Part shown: positions 36,503-46,600 of the stretch, piece after piece
Position numbering within the stretch: position 1 is the first letter of the stretch
How the letters are laid out: each line of letters opens with the position of its first letter
NCBI RefSeq assembly: GCF_000717875.1
Contig: NZ_JOCT01000018.1
Coordinates: 62,001 to 126,000, forward strand
Direction of reading: 5' to 3'
From: Streptomyces sp. NRRL S-455
Lineage (GTDB): Bacteria; Actinomycetota; Actinomycetes; Streptomycetales; Streptomycetaceae
DNA length: 64,000 nucleotides
Made by a program: the position numbers and the translations under genes
The notes under the pieces: model-generated
Databases searched by the model: none
What the model was told of the DNA's origin: nothing
Seen by the model: the letters and a program-made list of their open reading frames with translations, nothing else

Positions 36503-38687
<2,185 letters not shown>

Positions 38688-38699
38688 TTAGAGAGCATG

Positions 38700-38732
38700 A
38701 CTATACGTTCTGCTGCACGTTTATGCAATCCG
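38700..38732. promoter_or_regulatory. ARG box upstream of argC
   Basis: Leftwards the region reads TTGCATAAACGTGCA, then CAGAACGTATAGTCATGC. The TGCA arms and AT-rich centres resemble the boxes upstream of argG. Its position 25-57 bp before the argC start fits repression by ArgR. Confidence 0.65.
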
Positions 38733-38750
38733 CGATCGCTGGCCATGACT

Positions 38751-38766
38751 CACTCGTACGAGTGAC
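38751..38766. promoter_or_regulatory. Perfect 16-bp palindrome upstream of the CHAT gene
   Basis: TCACTCGTACGAGTGA is a perfect palindrome with no spacer, lying 79 bp before the CHAT-gene GTG and downstream of the ARG box. It is a likely operator, but which protein binds is unknown. Confidence 0.55.
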
Positions 38767-38845
38767 TTCCCTGGCTCTGGCGGGGGGAGCACGACAAGCT
38801 CACACTGTTTGTGCCGTTGCGGCTCGTCATCGGAGGGGGCGAAGC

Positions 38846-41800
38846 GTGTTCGTAGCGACGCTGGCGTCGTGCTGGTCCCGCCTGGTGACGGTGCCGTCCG
38901 CGCCCCCGGACCCCGGCGCCGAGGCCTGGGTGGACCGTCTGAGGACCGCCGACCCTCGCGCGGTGCGTGACGCCGTGGTCGCCGCCGATGACGACCGTGT
39001 GGTGAGCGCGGTGATCACCCTGCTGACCAGGGCGCTCTCCGCCACAGCCGCGGGGGACGGCACAGTCCGGCTCGACGGCGCCGGGCGGTTGCTGCTGCGG
39101 ATCGTGGCGCACGGACACGGCACCGGCTTCCCGGGAGGCGAGCTGGCATCCGCGCACGCACACTTCCTGATCGGGCTCGACGAGCATCTGACGTCCCCCA
39201 GCGAGGCGCGCCGGACCTACGAACTCGCGGCGCTCGCCTACCGCAGCGACGGCGCGGAGGCCCTGGGTCTGCTGGCGTCGTTCGCTTCTTCCACCGCGAG
39301 CCAGGCTGCACTGTTCGACGCCGACTTCACCGAAGCCCACGAGCGACTGGAGCTGCTGGCGGCCGGCGACATCGACGCCGCTGCCGCCCTGCGGCGAACG
39401 CTCCAGCCGTACCAGAGGGTCGTCTCCTGGGCCGCGGACGTACGCGCCGGACGCGGCGCGGAGGAGCGCGGTCCGGCGGACGCCGACGAGGAATGCTCAG
39501 CCCTGCTGCACTACTTCGCACTGTCGGCACTCGACGACCCCCGGGTGGCCGCGCGGATGTCGCATGCCGCCGACGCCGCCCGACCGGAGTCCATCACGGC
39601 GGAGTCGAGTCTGCGGGAACTGACGCGCGCCTTGTTCCGGAGGCGGCAGTGGGCCGACGCCGAGATGCTGCTGTCCGAACTGCTCGCCAGGGACCCGGAC
39701 AACAGGACGGACCTGAAGACCCTGGCAGTGGTCTACGCCTCGATGGGCCGCTGGCCGGAGGGCAGGGCACTCCTGACCGGGCTGCTCGGCGACCCACCGG
39801 AACGCAACGACCTGCCGGTTCTCGTGGACCTGTGCATGCTGGCACACCTGAACGGCGACACCGAGGACGCCCTGCGGTGGCGTCAGGCGATCGTGGAGCT
39901 GGACCCGGACTCCGACCCGTTCCGAGGACTACCGGGCGTCGTCGTGGAGCCGGACGAGCCCCCACCGCTGCTCGCCGCCCTCAGCGACGGCAAGCTGCAC
40001 GTCAGCGAGGAGCTCTTCGAACTGCCGCAGGAAGAGATATCCGCCCACATGACGGCGGCGGTCGTCTCGGGCAGTCCGGACGGCGGCGAACTGCTCGACA
40101 CGCTGTTCCGCGACGATCCCACCCTGGCCGAGCGGGTACTGGCCCTGCTCGGACTGGTCCGGGTGACTCCCGAACAGGCCGAGGCCATGGAGCACTTCCG
40201 TACCGCCGAGGAACACTTCGCGGCCGGCCGCCTCGACGACGCCCAGACCGAGTACGAGGCCACCCTTCGGCTGCAGCCCGACCACGTGCAGGCCATGACG
40301 TACCTCGGGGACACGTGGTACCGGCGGGGCGCTTACCACATCGCTCAGGCCTACTTCGAGGAGTCCCTGGCCATCGAACCGACGCCGGAGGCCTACCGCT
40401 TCCTCGGCGACGCGCTTCGGTACGGCGGTCACGGCGCCCGGCGGGCACGTCCCTGCTACGAGAACGCGCTGCGCCTCGCGCCGGAATACCGGGGCGCCCG
40501 GCAGGCACTCGCCGCTCTGGAGGAGCAGGAGCCGCCGGACGGGCCTGAGCCGCCGGACACCGGTGACACGGTCGTCGCGCCGGCCGTCCGGCAGGCGCAG
40601 TCCGGAGGACCTGAGCCGGCCGGTCCCGGCCCGGCTGCTGCTCCCGGCACCGCGGAGCAGACGGATCCCACCGAGCGACGGGAGTCCGTCTGGTCGTCAC
40701 CATCGGCCGAGGTGGCGCCGGGAGGTACCGGCCACGGCGACCGCCTGGTCTCCGTCCTTCTCGACCGGGACGGTCCCGACGGCTTCGTCGGCGCGGTCGA
40801 CGACGACGAGCGGTTCGCACGCTGGGTCGAGGCGGCCGCTCCCGAGGATCTCGTGCGAGCCGGTCTGACGGCCGTGGCCGTCAGCTTTCAGTACCACGTC
40901 AAGGACCGCGACCTGCCCCGCTGGAAGCTGTGGGTGAGGCGGCAGGTGGAGCTGGCACAGGCGTTGCCCGCGGACTTCGGCCCGGCCGGCAGCCCTGTGG
41001 AACTGGGCCGCGACCGTCTCCTGGCGGACGCGCTGACGTCCCTGGCGGGTGTGCGGGTGTCGGAGGGGCTGCTCCCGGAGGCACGGGCCATTTACGAGCA
41101 CTGTCTCGAACTGCTGACCGCGGAGAAGAACGCCCGCGCACGGGCCGGGCTGGCAGGCGAGGCACAGTTCGACCGGCTGTTCCACCAGACGAGCGTGCGG
41201 TCCGGCATCCTCGACTCACTGGCCGAGGTCTGTCACCAGTTGGGGGACCACGTCGCCGCACAGCGACACCGGAGGGAGGCGAGGCGGCTGGACGAGTCCC
41301 GGCCCACCACCGAGGCGGAGGTCCAGGGGTTCATCGCTGCCGCGGACTCGGCCCTCGACAGCGGCCTGACCGACCAGGCGCTGGGCCTGTTCCAGCATGC
41401 GCTCCACCTTGCCGAGGACGACGATCCGGACCCGTTGGTACCGCGCATGCTGACCACGGCACTGAACGGTCTGGGGCGGGGACACCTGCGGCTGGGCACA
41501 GCGCGCGCGGCACTGGCCTGCTTCGACCGGGCCCGACTGCTCAACGAACGGACCGGCAACGCCGATCGTCTCGCGTACGACCACATGCACATCGCCGACG
41601 TGTTGCGGCAGCACCCCGAACTGGCCGACGCGGTGAGCGCCTCCGGTGCGGCCACCGCCCCCGAGGCCCGGGACGCGCGCGGTCACCTGGAACAAGCGCT
41701 GACCTACGCGAGCGTGCCGGATCCCGGCCATGACGCGTTCGGCTGGACGGCAACGGACGGCACACGGTATCGGATCAGCGCGCCGAACCGTGCCTGGCCT

Positions 41801-43327
41801 GTCCTGTTACGGCTCGGCCGGTTCCTTCAGGAGTCCGGGGACGATCCGGCGGCCGTCCGCTTTCTGACCCTCGCCACCCGGCTGGCGGACCTGATGCGGA
41901 CCGGGCTGGTGGACGACCGTCAGCGGATCGCGGTGCAGAACCAGCGCATCGAGGCCTTCGCCGACCTGACAAAGGTGCTGGTCCGTCTGGCGTGCAGCGG
42001 CGGGCGGGAATCCGACTTCTACGCCGAGGAGGCCTGGCTGGCCAACGAGTCCATGCGGGCGCGTGCCTTCCTCGACGAGCTCGGCGACGCCGAGCTCTCC
42101 CCTCCGCCCGGCGTTCCTGCCGACCTCCTGGAGCGGGAAAGGGAACTGCTGATCCGTCGGCGCCGCCTGCGGCAGGCCGAGGAGGCGCAGGACCTCGGTT
42201 TCTGGGCGGAGTACCGGGACCTCACCCAGGAGCTCGACGGCGTGTGGGAGGAGATGCGCAGGACGTCCCCGTCCGCCGAGGGGTATGTGGAGGTGCGGCA
42301 GGCCCGGCCGGCGGATCCGGCGGACCTGACCTCCCTTCTGGACCAGGGCGGCCGTCCGGCCGTGCTGGCCAGTCTGGTTCGGCTCGACGACGGGCTGCTC
42401 GGTGTGATCGCGTTGCGGGGAGACCGGCCGACCCCGGTCGTGCAGACCCGTCCGGTCGACATGGCACGGCTCACCAGGTTCGTCCGGATGAACTTCGGCT
42501 CGGCCGGGCGGGTGCGGGAGCTGGCGGTGGACGCCGAGGACCTGTTCCAGCACGAGATGGCGCCGGTGGCCGACCTGCTGACAGCGGTCTGCGACCCGGA
42601 GGAACTCCTGATCGTCTGCCCCGTGGGCGCCCTGCACCATGTTCCTCTCGGAGCGCTGCGGACGGGAGAGCGGATCCTGCTGGAGCGGAACCCTCTCGCC
42701 CTGCTGCCGGGCGCCTCCCTCCTGCGGGCCCTGCGTTCCGCGGCCCCTGTGCCGGCCGCGGAGCCCGCCGCGGTGTTCGGCGATCCGGTCGGGGACCTGC
42801 CGGGCGCACGGGACGAAGCCGTGTCCGTCGCGGCGAGGTTCGCGACGACGCCCCTGCTCGGCGGGGACGCCTCGACGGCTGCCGTACGGCAGGCCCTGAC
42901 GACGGTGGACCTGCTGCATGTCGCCGCGCACGCCCGCTTCGACCCCAGGGACGCCCTGGCATCCGGACTGGTCCTCTCCGACGGTGTGCTCAGTGCTCGG
43001 GAGATCCTCAGGCTGAAGGCACCGTCGCTGTCCCTCGTCACCCTGTCCGCCTGCGAGACCGGCGTGTCCGAGACGGACGCCGCCGAGGAGTTGATCGGTC
43101 TCACCCGGGCCCTGCTGTTCGCGGGTGCCGGTGCCATGGTGGTCAGCCTCTGGAAGGTTCCGGACCTGGCGACGAGGGACATGATGAGCCAGTTCTACGA
43201 CGGCCTCCAGAGCGGCGCCGGCAAGGTCGACTCGCTGCGCCGTGCGGTGCTGAACGCCAGGGACACCTACGGACCGGACCGGCTGGACCGATGGTCCGGC
43301 TTCCAGCTGATCGGCGACTGGCGCTGA
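38846..43327 (+). CDS. TPR-CHAT protein (caspase-like CHAT peptidase with tetratricopeptide repeats)
   Basis: A 1493-residue protein from GTG 38846, preceded by GGAGGGGG. The frame is open further upstream but has no ribosome site there and overlaps argC. TPR helices are clear around residues 450-555 (AEEHFAAGRLDDAQTEYEAT, AYHIAQAYFEESLAIEPTP) and again around 800-960. The C-terminal third (from about 1150) is a CHAT domain: the catalytic His region is LLHVAAHARFDP (about 1356) and the Cys lies in LSACETGVSETDAAEEL (about 1402). Both catalytic residues are retained. CHAT proteins are clan-CD cysteine proteases linked to cell-death and defence systems. A TTA codon at 41807 implies bldA control. 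No signal or membrane segment is visible. Confidence 0.85.
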   Translation: MFVATLASCWSRLVTVPSAPPDPGAEAWVDRLRTADPRAVRDAVVAADDDRVVSAVITLLTRALSATAAGDGTVRLDGAGRLLLRIVAHGHGTGFPGGELASAHAHFLIGLDEHLTSPSEARRTYELAALAYRSDGAEALGLLASFASSTASQAALFDADFTEAHERLELLAAGDIDAAAALRRTLQPYQRVVSWAADVRAGRGAEERGPADADEECSALLHYFALSALDDPRVAARMSHAADAARPESITAESSLRELTRALFRRRQWADAEMLLSELLARDPDNRTDLKTLAVVYASMGRWPEGRALLTGLLGDPPERNDLPVLVDLCMLAHLNGDTEDALRWRQAIVELDPDSDPFRGLPGVVVEPDEPPPLLAALSDGKLHVSEELFELPQEEISAHMTAAVVSGSPDGGELLDTLFRDDPTLAERVLALLGLVRVTPEQAEAMEHFRTAEEHFAAGRLDDAQTEYEATLRLQPDHVQAMTYLGDTWYRRGAYHIAQAYFEESLAIEPTPEAYRFLGDALRYGGHGARRARPCYENALRLAPEYRGARQALAALEEQEPPDGPEPPDTGDTVVAPAVRQAQSGGPEPAGPGPAAAPGTAEQTDPTERRESVWSSPSAEVAPGGTGHGDRLVSVLLDRDGPDGFVGAVDDDERFARWVEAAAPEDLVRAGLTAVAVSFQYHVKDRDLPRWKLWVRRQVELAQALPADFGPAGSPVELGRDRLLADALTSLAGVRVSEGLLPEARAIYEHCLELLTAEKNARARAGLAGEAQFDRLFHQTSVRSGILDSLAEVCHQLGDHVAAQRHRREARRLDESRPTTEAEVQGFIAAADSALDSGLTDQALGLFQHALHLAEDDDPDPLVPRMLTTALNGLGRGHLRLGTARAALACFDRARLLNERTGNADRLAYDHMHIADVLRQHPELADAVSASGAATAPEARDARGHLEQALTYASVPDPGHDAFGWTATDGTRYRISAPNRAWPVLLRLGRFLQESGDDPAAVRFLTLATRLADLMRTGLVDDRQRIAVQNQRIEAFADLTKVLVRLACSGGRESDFYAEEAWLANESMRARAFLDELGDAELSPPPGVPADLLERERELLIRRRRLRQAEEAQDLGFWAEYRDLTQELDGVWEEMRRTSPSAEGYVEVRQARPADPADLTSLLDQGGRPAVLASLVRLDDGLLGVIALRGDRPTPVVQTRPVDMARLTRFVRMNFGSAGRVRELAVDAEDLFQHEMAPVADLLTAVCDPEELLIVCPVGALHHVPLGALRTGERILLERNPLALLPGASLLRALRSAAPVPAAEPAAVFGDPVGDLPGARDEAVSVAARFATTPLLGGDASTAAVRQALTTVDLLHVAAHARFDPRDALASGLVLSDGVLSAREILRLKAPSLSLVTLSACETGVSETDAAEELIGLTRALLFAGAGAMVVSLWKVPDLATRDMMSQFYDGLQSGAGKVDSLRRAVLNARDTYGPDRLDRWSGFQLIGDWR

Positions 43328-43365
43328 CCGGCGGCACCCCACGGACCAACGGGAGGGATCAACGG

Positions 43366-44043
43366 ATGACCGACGACACACTCTTCACGCCTCTCACCGA
43401 ACTCGCCTTCGACGTGGACGAGGAGGAGACCGATCGCGCGGCCACCGAAGTGATCGACGACGCCACGCTGCGCCTGCTCAAGCGTGAGAACCGGGTGGCC
43501 ATCGCCCGTGCGCCCAGCAGACGCGTGTCCGCTCCCGGCCAGGCGGCGGACCGGTGCGGCCACGACGTGCCTCTGATGTTCGCGCTGCACGCCCACCCCG
43601 AGTGCACGTTCGCCTGGTCCCGGTTTCTGGTCGACCTCAGCCCGACACCGGACTGCGTCATCGCGGACATGGCCCCGCGCGAGGTCGAGGACCTGCCGGT
43701 CGAGGTGGAGACGACGGTCGGTCTCGACCTGTCCTTCTCCGTCGCCGCGTCGGTGGTCGATCTCTCCGGCGCTCCGCAGGTCGGGCGGCGACGCACGGTC
43801 TACCACCCGATGGTCCTGGCCTCGGGCGTCGGCTTCCGCAAGGCGTACTGGGACTTCTATCCCAAGGCGGGCGACTATCTGCACTCCGACAAGGAGCTGC
43901 GGCTGCTCGTGGACGCCCCGGCCGGCACGCCGGTGCACGCCGCCTTCACGGTTCGGGTCAAGGTCCGTTTTCGGGGGCTGCCACGGCTCATCCCGCTCCT
44001 GGCGAGGACCAGCACCACCGAGAGGACCGTCCGGCTCGCGTGA
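43366..44043 (+). CDS. Uncharacterised protein partnered with the CHAT gene
   Basis: A 225-residue protein from ATG 43366, with GGGAGGG upstream, 38 nt after the CHAT stop and surely in its operon. I recognise no family. Beta-strand-like blocks run through FALHAHPECTFAWSRFLVDL, VEDLPVEVETTVGLDLSFSV and VHAAFTVRVKVRFRGLPRLI. There are no cysteines except Cys59-like and Cys75-like positions, no signal peptide and no clear membrane helix. It may be a substrate, adaptor or inhibitor of the CHAT protease; this is inferred only from position. Confidence 0.72.
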   Translation: MTDDTLFTPLTELAFDVDEEETDRAATEVIDDATLRLLKRENRVAIARAPSRRVSAPGQAADRCGHDVPLMFALHAHPECTFAWSRFLVDLSPTPDCVIADMAPREVEDLPVEVETTVGLDLSFSVAASVVDLSGAPQVGRRRTVYHPMVLASGVGFRKAYWDFYPKAGDYLHSDKELRLLVDAPAGTPVHAAFTVRVKVRFRGLPRLIPLLARTSTTERTVRLA

Positions 44044-44068
44044 GTCACGTCAGACGGACCAGGGACGA

Positions 44069-44103
44069 GCGCGGGCCGCCGCCCCTCGGACAGCGGCCCG
44101 CGC
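44069..44103. terminator. Bidirectional hairpin terminator
   Basis: GCGCGGGCCGC (44069-44079) pairs perfectly with GCGGCCCGCGC (44093-44103). It lies between the convergent CHAT-partner gene and the arabinofuranosidase gene and can serve both. Confidence 0.7.
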
Positions 44104-44116
44104 CCCGGCCCGACGG

Positions 44117-46600
44117 CTACCTCTGCTTGATCCTCAGGAACGTGACGGAGTTCGCCGGGAAGGTGTAGCTGAACTTCCCGGCCACGCCGCGGAACGTGGA
44201 CGTCACCGGGGTCACCGGCGTGTCCGTCTCGGTGTTCACCGCGTCCTCGTCGGCGGCCAGCGTGGTCACCCGGGCCGTGGAGGCGACTTTCGCGCCACCC
44301 AGGTCGATCGCGGTACGGGCCTCGGCCGCCTGGGCGTTGACGACCTTGACGATCAGGTCGCCGGTCTTCGCGTCCTCGGTGACGACCTGGCGGAACGGCT
44401 CGGCCGGCTTGTCGTCGGTGAAGCTGCCCCACTCCTCGCCGTCCAGGAACAGCGTCACCTGGCGGCCGCGCACCTTGATGTCGATGTCGTAGGCGCGGCC
44501 CGTCTCGATCGATCCGGCCTTCGTCATCAGCGTGCCCTTGCCGCCGTCCACGGCCTGCTCGATCGCGGACTGGGTGTTGTTCCAGCCGCCCAGGTTCCAC
44601 CAGTAGTAGTTGCCGGTGTCCTTGACGCCGAAGGCGACCAGGAAGCCCTCCTTGCCGGACTTCTTGGTGGCCTTCACGTGCAGGTCGTAGTCCTTCCAGG
44701 CGGGGTCGCCCGCCGTGACCATGGTGTTCTCGGCGGCGGTGTCGGTCTGGACGTACTGGCCGTCCTGGATGCTCCAGCTGCCGGCGCCTGTGTGCTTCCA
44801 CTTCGCGGCGTCACCGGAGAAGTCCTCGTCGAGCAGGACCGCGCCGTCCGCCGAGGTGACCTTCACGTCGTCGTACGCGGCGCTGGTCGCCCAGGTGGAG
44901 AGGCCGACGGCGCCGGTGATGGGGCCGCTGACGCCGGGAGTGGTGGTGGCCTTCGACGGGACGACGCGGTCGCCGACGTTGGTCATGAACAGCTTCTGGA
45001 CCTCGTAGTTGGCCGAGTTCCAGGAGGCCCGGTTGTTGAACCAGATCATGTCCGGCCGCCACTGCACGTAGTCCTCGTTGGCGAGCAGCGGGGCGTACGA
45101 GGCGAGTTTGACGATGTCCGCGTTGCGTTCCAGGCCGGTCATGTAGGCGGCTTCGGCGAGGCCGTTCTTCCAGGCGTTGCCCTGGGAGGCGTACTCGCCG
45201 AGGAAGACCTTGGGGCCACTGCGGTCGTAGGAGTCGTAGCGGTCGTTGTTCTGCAGGAACCAGTTCGGGCTGTTGTAGTAGTGCTCGTCGACCATGTCGA
45301 CCTTGCCCTCGCGGTTGAGCTGCCAGGCGGTGTCGAAGGTCGTTCCGGCGTCGTCCGGGCCGGAGTTGGAGATGACGGTGATGTCCGGGTACTCGGCCTT
45401 GATGGCGGCCCGGAACTGCTGGAAGCGGGCGAAGAACTCCCTCGGGAGGTTCTCCTCGTTGCCGACACCGATGTGGGTCAGGTGGAAGGGCTTCGGGTGG
45501 CCCATGCGGGCGCGCACCTTGCCCCACTTCGACGTCGCCGGGCCGTTGGCGAATTCGATGAGGTCCAGGGTGTCCTGGATGTGCCGCTTGAGCAGGGCGT
45601 CGTCGTCGGTGGCCTTGTTCTGGCCGCAGCCGGTGACCAGGGCCGGGACGACGGGCAGCGGCATGGCGCCGATGTCCTCGGAGAAGCGGAAGTACTCGTA
45701 GTAGCCGAGGCCGTAGCTCTGGTTGTAGCCCCAGACGTTGGCGTTGGTCGCGCGCTCCTCGACGGGCCCGATGGTGTCCTTCCACTGGTAGCTGCGCTTG
45801 CGCTGCCAGCCGCTGGCCTCGCTGTAGTCCTCCATGGAGCCGGTGTTGACCAGGCAGCCGCCGGGGAAGCGCACGAAGCCCGGCTTCAGGGCGGCGATCT
45901 TCTCGGCGAGGTCCTTGCGCAGGCCGTTCGGCTGGTTCTTGTACGTCTCGCGCGGGAACAGCGACACCATGTCGAGCGCCGCGGCGTTCACCGAGGCGAC
46001 GGCGAGTCGGCCGCGGTTGCTGGTGCGGGTCGCGGTGAAGGTGGCCTCGTACTTGGCCCAGCCGCCCTTGACGGCGACCTGGCGGGCGGTCGCCAGGGAG
46101 CCGGCGGCGTCCTTCAGGGAGACGGCGAGCGTGGTGCCGCTCTCGGCGCGGGCCCACACGGAGAAGTCGTACCGCTTGCCCTGCTCGACCCGGATACCGG
46201 TGTTGTAGCCGGTGTTCGTGACGGACGAACCGGCGCCCAGGGACAGGTAGTTGCGGTTGCGCTCATTGAGCCGGCCGGAGTCGTTGACGACTTGGGCCGT
46301 GCCGCCGACCGTCCAGGAGGTCAGGGGCGTGTACGAGCCGTTGTCGGCGGTGGAGTACTCGAAGGACCGGTTCTGCACGAGCTCGGCGTAGAGACCGCCG
46401 TCGGCGGCCCGGTTGATGTCCTCGAAGAAGACGCCGTACATCGTGTCGTCGATCTTCGCGCCCCGGGCGGACGGGTCGACGGTGATCGCGTAGTCGGTGA
46501 CGTCCTCGGCGTGCGCGGGGACCGGTACGAGGGCTGCTGCCGTCAGGAGTGCGGTGGTCGTGAGACCGGCTCTCCATCGGGTGCGGGCGGTGCGTGGCAT
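44117..46600 (-). CDS. Secreted alpha-L-arabinofuranosidase (GH51-like) with carbohydrate-binding regions
   Basis: An 827-residue protein starting MPRTARTRWRAGLTTTALLT, a signal peptide cleaved near VPAHA. The catalytic GH51-type barrel contains GVFFEDINRAADGGLYAELV, the acid/base Glu in HIGVGNEENL and the nucleophile Glu in VFLGEYASQGN. A concanavalin-like module follows (DEDFSGDAAKWKHTG to VTLFLDGEEWG), and a carbohydrate-binding segment lies in the N-terminal part. It should release arabinose from arabinan or arabinoxylan outside the cell. The start follows GCGGAG; the frame opens earlier without a ribosome site. Confidence 0.88.
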   Translation of the reverse strand: MPRTARTRWRAGLTTTALLTAAALVPVPAHAEDVTDYAITVDPSARGAKIDDTMYGVFFEDINRAADGGLYAELVQNRSFEYSTADNGSYTPLTSWTVGGTAQVVNDSGRLNERNRNYLSLGAGSSVTNTGYNTGIRVEQGKRYDFSVWARAESGTTLAVSLKDAAGSLATARQVAVKGGWAKYEATFTATRTSNRGRLAVASVNAAALDMVSLFPRETYKNQPNGLRKDLAEKIAALKPGFVRFPGGCLVNTGSMEDYSEASGWQRKRSYQWKDTIGPVEERATNANVWGYNQSYGLGYYEYFRFSEDIGAMPLPVVPALVTGCGQNKATDDDALLKRHIQDTLDLIEFANGPATSKWGKVRARMGHPKPFHLTHIGVGNEENLPREFFARFQQFRAAIKAEYPDITVISNSGPDDAGTTFDTAWQLNREGKVDMVDEHYYNSPNWFLQNNDRYDSYDRSGPKVFLGEYASQGNAWKNGLAEAAYMTGLERNADIVKLASYAPLLANEDYVQWRPDMIWFNNRASWNSANYEVQKLFMTNVGDRVVPSKATTTPGVSGPITGAVGLSTWATSAAYDDVKVTSADGAVLLDEDFSGDAAKWKHTGAGSWSIQDGQYVQTDTAAENTMVTAGDPAWKDYDLHVKATKKSGKEGFLVAFGVKDTGNYYWWNLGGWNNTQSAIEQAVDGGKGTLMTKAGSIETGRAYDIDIKVRGRQVTLFLDGEEWGSFTDDKPAEPFRQVVTEDAKTGDLIVKVVNAQAAEARTAIDLGGAKVASTARVTTLAADEDAVNTETDTPVTPVTSTFRGVAGKFSYTFPANSVTFLRIKQR

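Follow-up and report, generated by a model that had tools for sequence, protein, structure and literature searches.

The question raised by this locus, which lies in a 64,000-nucleotide stretch of Streptomyces sp. NRRL S-455 (contig NZ_JOCT01000018.1; the whole stretch is hereafter called the window), is what a large protein combining TPR repeats with a CHAT peptidase domain has to do with the small protein encoded immediately behind it. A preliminary description, made from the DNA alone, had taken the two for a possible protease and its substrate or pore-former. The comparisons reported here make it almost certain that the partner gene and the CHAT gene constitute a real functional unit, and we put at roughly 50% the probability that the pair is a protease-switched intracellular pore-former, similar to caspase and gasdermin with a different pore-forming protein. 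The computation supports the pair as such, its co-inheritance, its intact catalytic residues, the predicted fold of the partner and the fact that no export signal is evident in it. The two genes, whose reading frames are both present as described, are the following:

38846 to 43327, plus strand: TPR-CHAT protein, 1493 residues, GTG start (open reading frame, Pfam TPR and CHAT matches, ribosome-binding-like GGAGGGGG just upstream)
43366 to 44043, plus strand: partner, 225 residues, ATG at 43366, predicted leukocidin/alpha-haemolysin-type fold, without evident signal peptide (AlphaFold2 model, PDB matches, family)

Several branches make up the superfamily of the partner. A database search yielded 57 homologues including the window's own, i.e., 56 others, and 54 of the 57 form alignment A1 (subfamily A), three fragments (P0041, P0056, P0057) being left out. 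Two weak matches led to a second subfamily: once the alignment used as query was broadened, 69 more proteins were retrieved, 58 of them aligned as A3 (subfamily B) and 11 left out. Alignment A1 has no rows in common with A3 or with a third, mixed alignment, A4, and profile comparison relates it to both (probability 96.9, E 1.9e-10 for A3; 97.6, E 4.6e-12 for A4); the value of 100 between A3 and A4 is inflated by four shared rows (P0118-P0121). The groups were named A, B, C (members beside EAD1-CHAT-type genes) and D (L096, L097). A1 matches at least one of 396 genomes sampled across the phylum (the window's own) and at least 11 of 392 in the genus, A3 at least 46 of the same number of Streptomyces genomes, and the union of the two at least 48 of 392, all being lower bounds as seven candidates per genome were scored. 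The named members seen are all actinobacterial and many others are unnamed metagenome proteins, with searches that reach only relatives sharing short words, so that restriction to actinobacteria is not proven. SPDY (DUF317) was considered as the identity of subfamily B and rejected as too weak, 16 of the 58 members being touched with a best E of 0.0041.

Do the two genes travel together? Examination covered 52 loci of relatives (L005 was excluded, as it is on the same contig as L017), with CHAT gaps measured between the edges of domain matches, not between the ends of reading frames. A CHAT domain lies within 177 nucleotides of the partner in 32 of the 52, upstream on the same strand in 29 and convergent in three (L026, L061, L077), the latter arrangement indicating that the linkage is independent of co-transcription. 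An EAD1-CHAT-type gene stands just downstream of the partner in 12 loci, and at L087 the CHAT domain is 1126 nucleotides away. No CHAT was found at seven loci (L075, L076, L089, L092, L093, L094, L095), three of which (L075, L094, L095) have partial partner matches only. Streptomyces genomes carry about two CHAT genes each (206 in 101 genomes, present in 77 of them), and chance adjacency at 200 nucleotides is expected about once in 10,000 per locus; as 44 of the 52 loci have an adjoining CHAT or EAD1-CHAT-type gene in spite of these low numbers, the pairing is not due to chance, and the two genes are not always separate in other genomes. In the reverse direction, 30 CHAT loci were selected for their CHAT scores, the window's among them, and only three have a detectable partner within 1.5 kilobases (kb), so that most of these CHAT genes have other functions or partners that are not known.

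The two proteins have also diverged in step. Pairwise distances of partners and of CHAT domains correlate with r 0.91 over 32 pairs (0.974 within subfamily A, 11 pairs, and 0.914 in the remaining 21), for loci with a partner match longer than 550 nucleotides and a CHAT domain within 200 nucleotides, and none of 2000 label shuffles reached the observed correlations. The correlation is evidence that the two genes descended together; it does not show that their products touch.

The surroundings of the pair bear on how it came to be there. The flanking genes, an argC-type semialdehyde dehydrogenase and an alpha-L-arabinofuranosidase, are both on the strand opposite to the pair, which had been described as inserted between argC and a glycosidase gene. 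The argC gene is present in all 31 genomes in which it was sought, those of 30 relatives besides the window's own, and 30 argC loci with 1.5 kb flanks, the window's locus being one of them, were compared. Among the 29 others, the arabinofuranosidase is also within reach at three (L099, L101, L105), and the pair is absent from all three; at the remaining 26 the stretch covered shows neither. In the three relatives homology to the window breaks at 38730-38739 and restarts at 44072-44117, which agrees with the insertion as described and delimits one further feature:

38740 to 44071, no strand assigned: accessory insertion with the pair, between argC and the arabinofuranosidase, absent in L099, L105 and L101

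These break points indicate that both genes were gained or lost together at a variable spot, and by this comparison the TPR-CHAT gene and its partner are one accessory unit. The relatives have sequence unlike the window's at this site (about 0.16 kb in L105, 0.35 kb in L101, 0.8 kb in L099), and since L099 holds different sequence there (about 0.8 kb, L099:2590-3395), the gap between argC and the arabinofuranosidase is a variable cargo spot.

The large gene encodes TPR regions and a CHAT peptidase domain, and both catalytic residues noticed in the preliminary description are present:

39635 to 40384, plus strand: TPR region 1, residues about 264-513 (best stretches of Pfam TPR_19, TPR_2 and TPR_1)
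41216 to 41416, plus strand: TPR region 2, residues about 791-857 (best stretch of Pfam TPR_12)
42533 to 43318, plus strand: CHAT peptidase domain, residues 1230-1491 (PF12770, clan CD, 190.8 bits, curated cut-off 24)
42929 to 42931, plus strand: codon of catalytic His1362 (HVAAH)
43052 to 43054, plus strand: codon of catalytic Cys1403 (SACETG)
43351 to 43357, plus strand: ribosome-binding-like GGGAGGG before the partner, read from the sequence

The earliest possible start of the CHAT frame is at 38444, and the stretch GGAGGGGG right before the GTG makes the start at 38846 reasonable; the partner follows on the same strand after a gap of 38 nucleotides (43328-43365). TPR region 1 is a likely sensor or scaffold. 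All 34 main-type CHAT domains in the residue alignment, those of the window and of L087 included, have both the His and the Cys, two CHAT pieces below 100 bits (L065, L077) having been left out. A CHAT domain with both residues thus lies within 177 nucleotides of the partner in 32 of the 52 loci, and five of the 12 EAD1-CHAT-type genes (L078, L079, L080, L082, L085) are intact as well. The preliminary description had named three outcomes that would speak against it, namely separation of the pair, a known unrelated family for the small protein, and loss of the Cys and His; none of them occurred. The window's own genome holds a second, weaker CHAT gene (G000:C10:155631-156029, 37.6 bits), with no partner found in the surrounding 20 kb.

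The partners of subfamily C are found in a different company. Pfam, run on five of the 12 EAD1-CHAT-type genes, gives EAD1 and CHAT in L078, L079 and L080, CHAT in the submitted part of L082, and EAD1 only in L083; the other seven genes were assigned by likeness. A three-gene cluster (L078:3136-8520) consists of a partner-family gene, an EAD1-CHAT gene and an EAD1-DEAD helicase gene, while in L079 the partner is followed by an EAD1-CHAT gene, a WD40 protein gene and a radical SAM gene. In PADLOC, weak matches to models of HamB, a component of Hachiman, are given by the helicases of L078 and L082 (58.6 and 59.3 bits). At L022 (L022:3985-8795) protease and TPR stand in different genes: a free-standing CHAT protein of 343 residues, the partner, a 210-residue protein without assignment and a separate TPR protein are encoded, the last of these by the second gene downstream from the partner's. 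At L089:8070-8759, L092:7377-8057 and L093:7350-8027, which belong to the group of L083, the partner is kept and the EAD1-CHAT-type gene beside it is missing; the gene next to the partner is presumably aldo-keto-reductase-like. EAD1 is described as an adaptor through which the core components of prokaryotic conflict systems are joined to effectors, caspase-like ones among them (PMC7159879), and the varied EAD1 and TPR contexts suggest that the same effector pair is coupled to exchangeable sensors. Proximity to defense genes, proposed as a check in the preliminary description, is seen in subfamily C only (EAD1-CHAT, and the EAD1-helicase in L078), from which the whole hint of defense comes; the window's own flanks are metabolic.

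What, then, is the partner? As the preliminary description had said, it is unrecognized by sequence: nothing in Pfam, NCBIfam or PADLOC matches it at E 1 or better, and a PDB sequence search gave chance matches only (E 0.18 or worse); a gasdermin, inhibitor or enzyme identity from sequence was therefore rejected. For the AlphaFold2 model (predicted local distance difference test, pLDDT, 80.5), the 50 PDB entries listed as structure matches are of the pore-forming toxin class and are aligned from residue 1-10 to residue 225, which supports a predicted overall fold of the leukocidin/alpha-haemolysin class (PF07968 family). Of the folds proposed for comparison in the preliminary description, the predicted one is like that of a pore-former; gasdermin is not among the fold matches listed, an absence that does not exclude it. 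Among viral structures, one weak match (E 8e-4, an uncharacterized insect-virus protein) was found, the others being at 0.005 or worse. No signal peptide is evident in the 54 aligned members by a simple hydropathy scan, which is not a dedicated predictor (best 12-residue value within the first 40 residues: median 0.58, maximum 1.40). At the fitting place for a pre-stem the model contains a segment of low confidence, as does the model of subfamily B:

43696 to 43815, plus strand: putative pre-stem, residues 111-150 (low model confidence, pLDDT block means 62, 62, 45 and 52)

The divergent type D partners (L096:7469-8209, L097:7849-8592), which stand beside CHAT, have another, glycine/lysine-rich segment at this position.

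Taken together with the layout of the locus, these data are most simply explained by the following mechanism. The TPR part of the large protein would receive a trigger and, until then, keep the C-terminal CHAT cysteine protease inactive; once activated, the protease would act on the partner, in all likelihood through a single cleavage at an exposed place; the first 20-40 residues of the chain and the loop that precedes residue 62 are guesses for it. Released by the cut, the leukocidin-type fold would assemble at the cell membrane from within, its pre-stem would unfold into a beta-barrel pore and the cell would be killed or stalled. Of the earlier idea of a protease with its substrate or pore-former, the partnership stands, the two genes being conserved as a pair, inherited together and acquired as one unit, and to it is added a predicted fold resembling that of pore toxins, while cutting, oligomerization, membrane insertion, pore formation, cell death, phage defense and phage infection as the trigger are what we infer.

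Several observations weigh against a pore-former, and some of them would suit a protein of another kind. The sequence profile of PF07968 does not match the window's partner, and matches one of the 54 aligned homologues of subfamily A, at E 0.24, and none of the 58 of subfamily B, in whose model other beta-sandwiches score nearly as high as the toxin class. The hydrophobic alternation of residues 112-124 in the putative pre-stem (VEVETTVGLDLSF) is 2.51 against a 95% null value of 2.52, hence not significant, and was dropped as evidence; the return strand is rich in Arg, and in subfamily B the segment falls outside the top windows for alternation. The pre-stem is thus not confirmed as a membrane hairpin, so that the pore-former reading rests on the fold, the likely intracellular location and the company of the gene. 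Finally, seven of the 12 EAD1-CHAT-type genes, forming one closely related group (L081, L083, L084, L086, L088, L090, L091; e.g., L083:8684-9505), have Arg at the His position (HLVCRR) and a shifted Cys; they are probably, from these substitutions, dead proteases kept beside the partner, and our estimates were left unchanged as all seven are in the one group. If the partner were a non-pore beta-sandwich acting as an adaptor or inhibitor on the TPR-CHAT protein, which it would hold inactive or for which it would recruit the true substrate, the leukocidin likeness would be that of the cap beta-sandwich only, and the unconfirmed pre-stem, the scores of subfamily B and the retention of the partner where the His (seven loci) or the whole EAD1-CHAT-type gene (three loci) is lost would all be accounted for, the tight pairing and matched divergence fitting equally well. 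We regard such an adaptor as rather unlikely, since the 50 toxin-class entries listed for the window's model are aligned over practically the entire chain, beyond one sheet, and a segment of about 40 residues stands at the expected pre-stem place in both models.

A pore-forming partner may also serve other ends than defense. The metabolic flanks of the window's pair and the commonness of CHAT genes in Streptomyces (77 of 101 genomes) would agree with a programmed cell-death or developmental switch, in which the pore-former lyses hyphae in the course of differentiation; this is improbable, given that the patchy presence (at least 48 of 392 sampled Streptomyces genomes carry a member), the empty site in three relatives and an EAD1-helicase as neighbor in one locus of subfamily C (L078) speak for an accessory conflict system more than for a core developmental one. 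Very improbable, in our opinion, is regulatory proteolysis without killing, in which the cut partner would release a signal, much as cleavage of Csx30 by Csx29 sets a sigma factor free (PMC10028731). The CHAT part does have a weak NCBIfam match to Csx29 (33.7 bits), but this is far under the cut-off of 300, no sigma-factor gene is directly beside the window's pair (its neighbors being argC and the arabinofuranosidase), and the predicted fold points to a pore-former. Extended to the relatives, the protease-switched pore-former leads to a tentative proposal, possible and somewhat doubtful in its full breadth: an actinobacterial superfamily of intracellular leukocidin-fold death effectors, switched by CHAT proteases, would constitute a gasdermin-independent form of bacterial pyroptosis, and the exchangeable sensors would, just as tentatively, be TPR arrays or EAD1 adaptors beside helicase or WD40 genes.

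Cell death by a protease combined with a pore-former is a plan found in bacteria, fungi and animals alike, and in the cases considered here the pore-former is a gasdermin. Bacterial gasdermins are cut by neighboring proteases (PMC9612521), and in their operons, as in the window, a caspase-like protease gene stands beside that of a small intracellular predicted pore-former, CHAT proteolysis being putative here; the window's pair differs by its leukocidin-type predicted fold, its TPR-CHAT protease and the absence of gasdermin among the matches listed. In Podospora anserina a fungal TPR-CHAT protease (PMC12881547) activates a gasdermin encoded in the same two-gene cluster, so that, like in the window, a TPR-bearing CHAT protease gene adjoins a pore-former gene, whereas the organism is eukaryotic and the pore-former a gasdermin. 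Craspase (type III-E CRISPR) likewise couples a TPR-CHAT protease, Csx29, to a neighboring substrate, Csx30 (putative in our case), and its catalytic pair H615/C658, given in PMC10028731, is 43 residues apart as against 41 in the window's protein; membership of the Csx29 family (NF041237) is not indicated by the score reported above, and Cas7-11/gRAMP is not beside the pair among its direct neighbors, arrays and the wider genome not having been searched. The CHAT protease BovA of the anti-phage system Borvo (PMC10952713) can be likened to the window's protein by the CHAT part alone, the PADLOC match being weak (17.4 bits, E 4.3e-4, 86 residues only, with no PADLOC cut-off given). A CHAT protease with a leukocidin-type partner is described in no paper among the matches listed (titles and beginnings of abstracts, preprints and most subscription journals being outside the scope), which is weak evidence of absence, and the words leukocidin and hemolysin have zero occurrences in the main texts of PMC7159879 and PMC8195603 as far as accessible. 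With EAD1 conflict systems subfamily C shares the adjacency of partners to EAD1-CHAT-type genes and, in L078, to an EAD1-helicase gene.

The leukocidin/alpha-haemolysin toxins resemble the partner by predicted fold over nearly its full length; the partner, by contrast, has no sequence match to them and no evident export signal, is encoded with a protease, is shorter (225 residues against 251-307 for most toxin chains among the matches listed) and comes from a family whose named members seen are all actinobacterial. If the proposed role is true, a second, unrelated pore-former would be coupled to the same class of protease, implying that evolution keeps the plan and not the part, and a fold known from secreted toxins would be placed inside the cell as a regulated effector. 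A two-gene Streptomyces system of this small size allows phage protection, leakage and cleavage to be tested together. If the proposed superfamily of death effectors is real, secreted pathogen leukocidins and internal effectors would share one fold with opposite uses, a weapon turned outwards in the former and a self-destruct device turned inwards in the latter.
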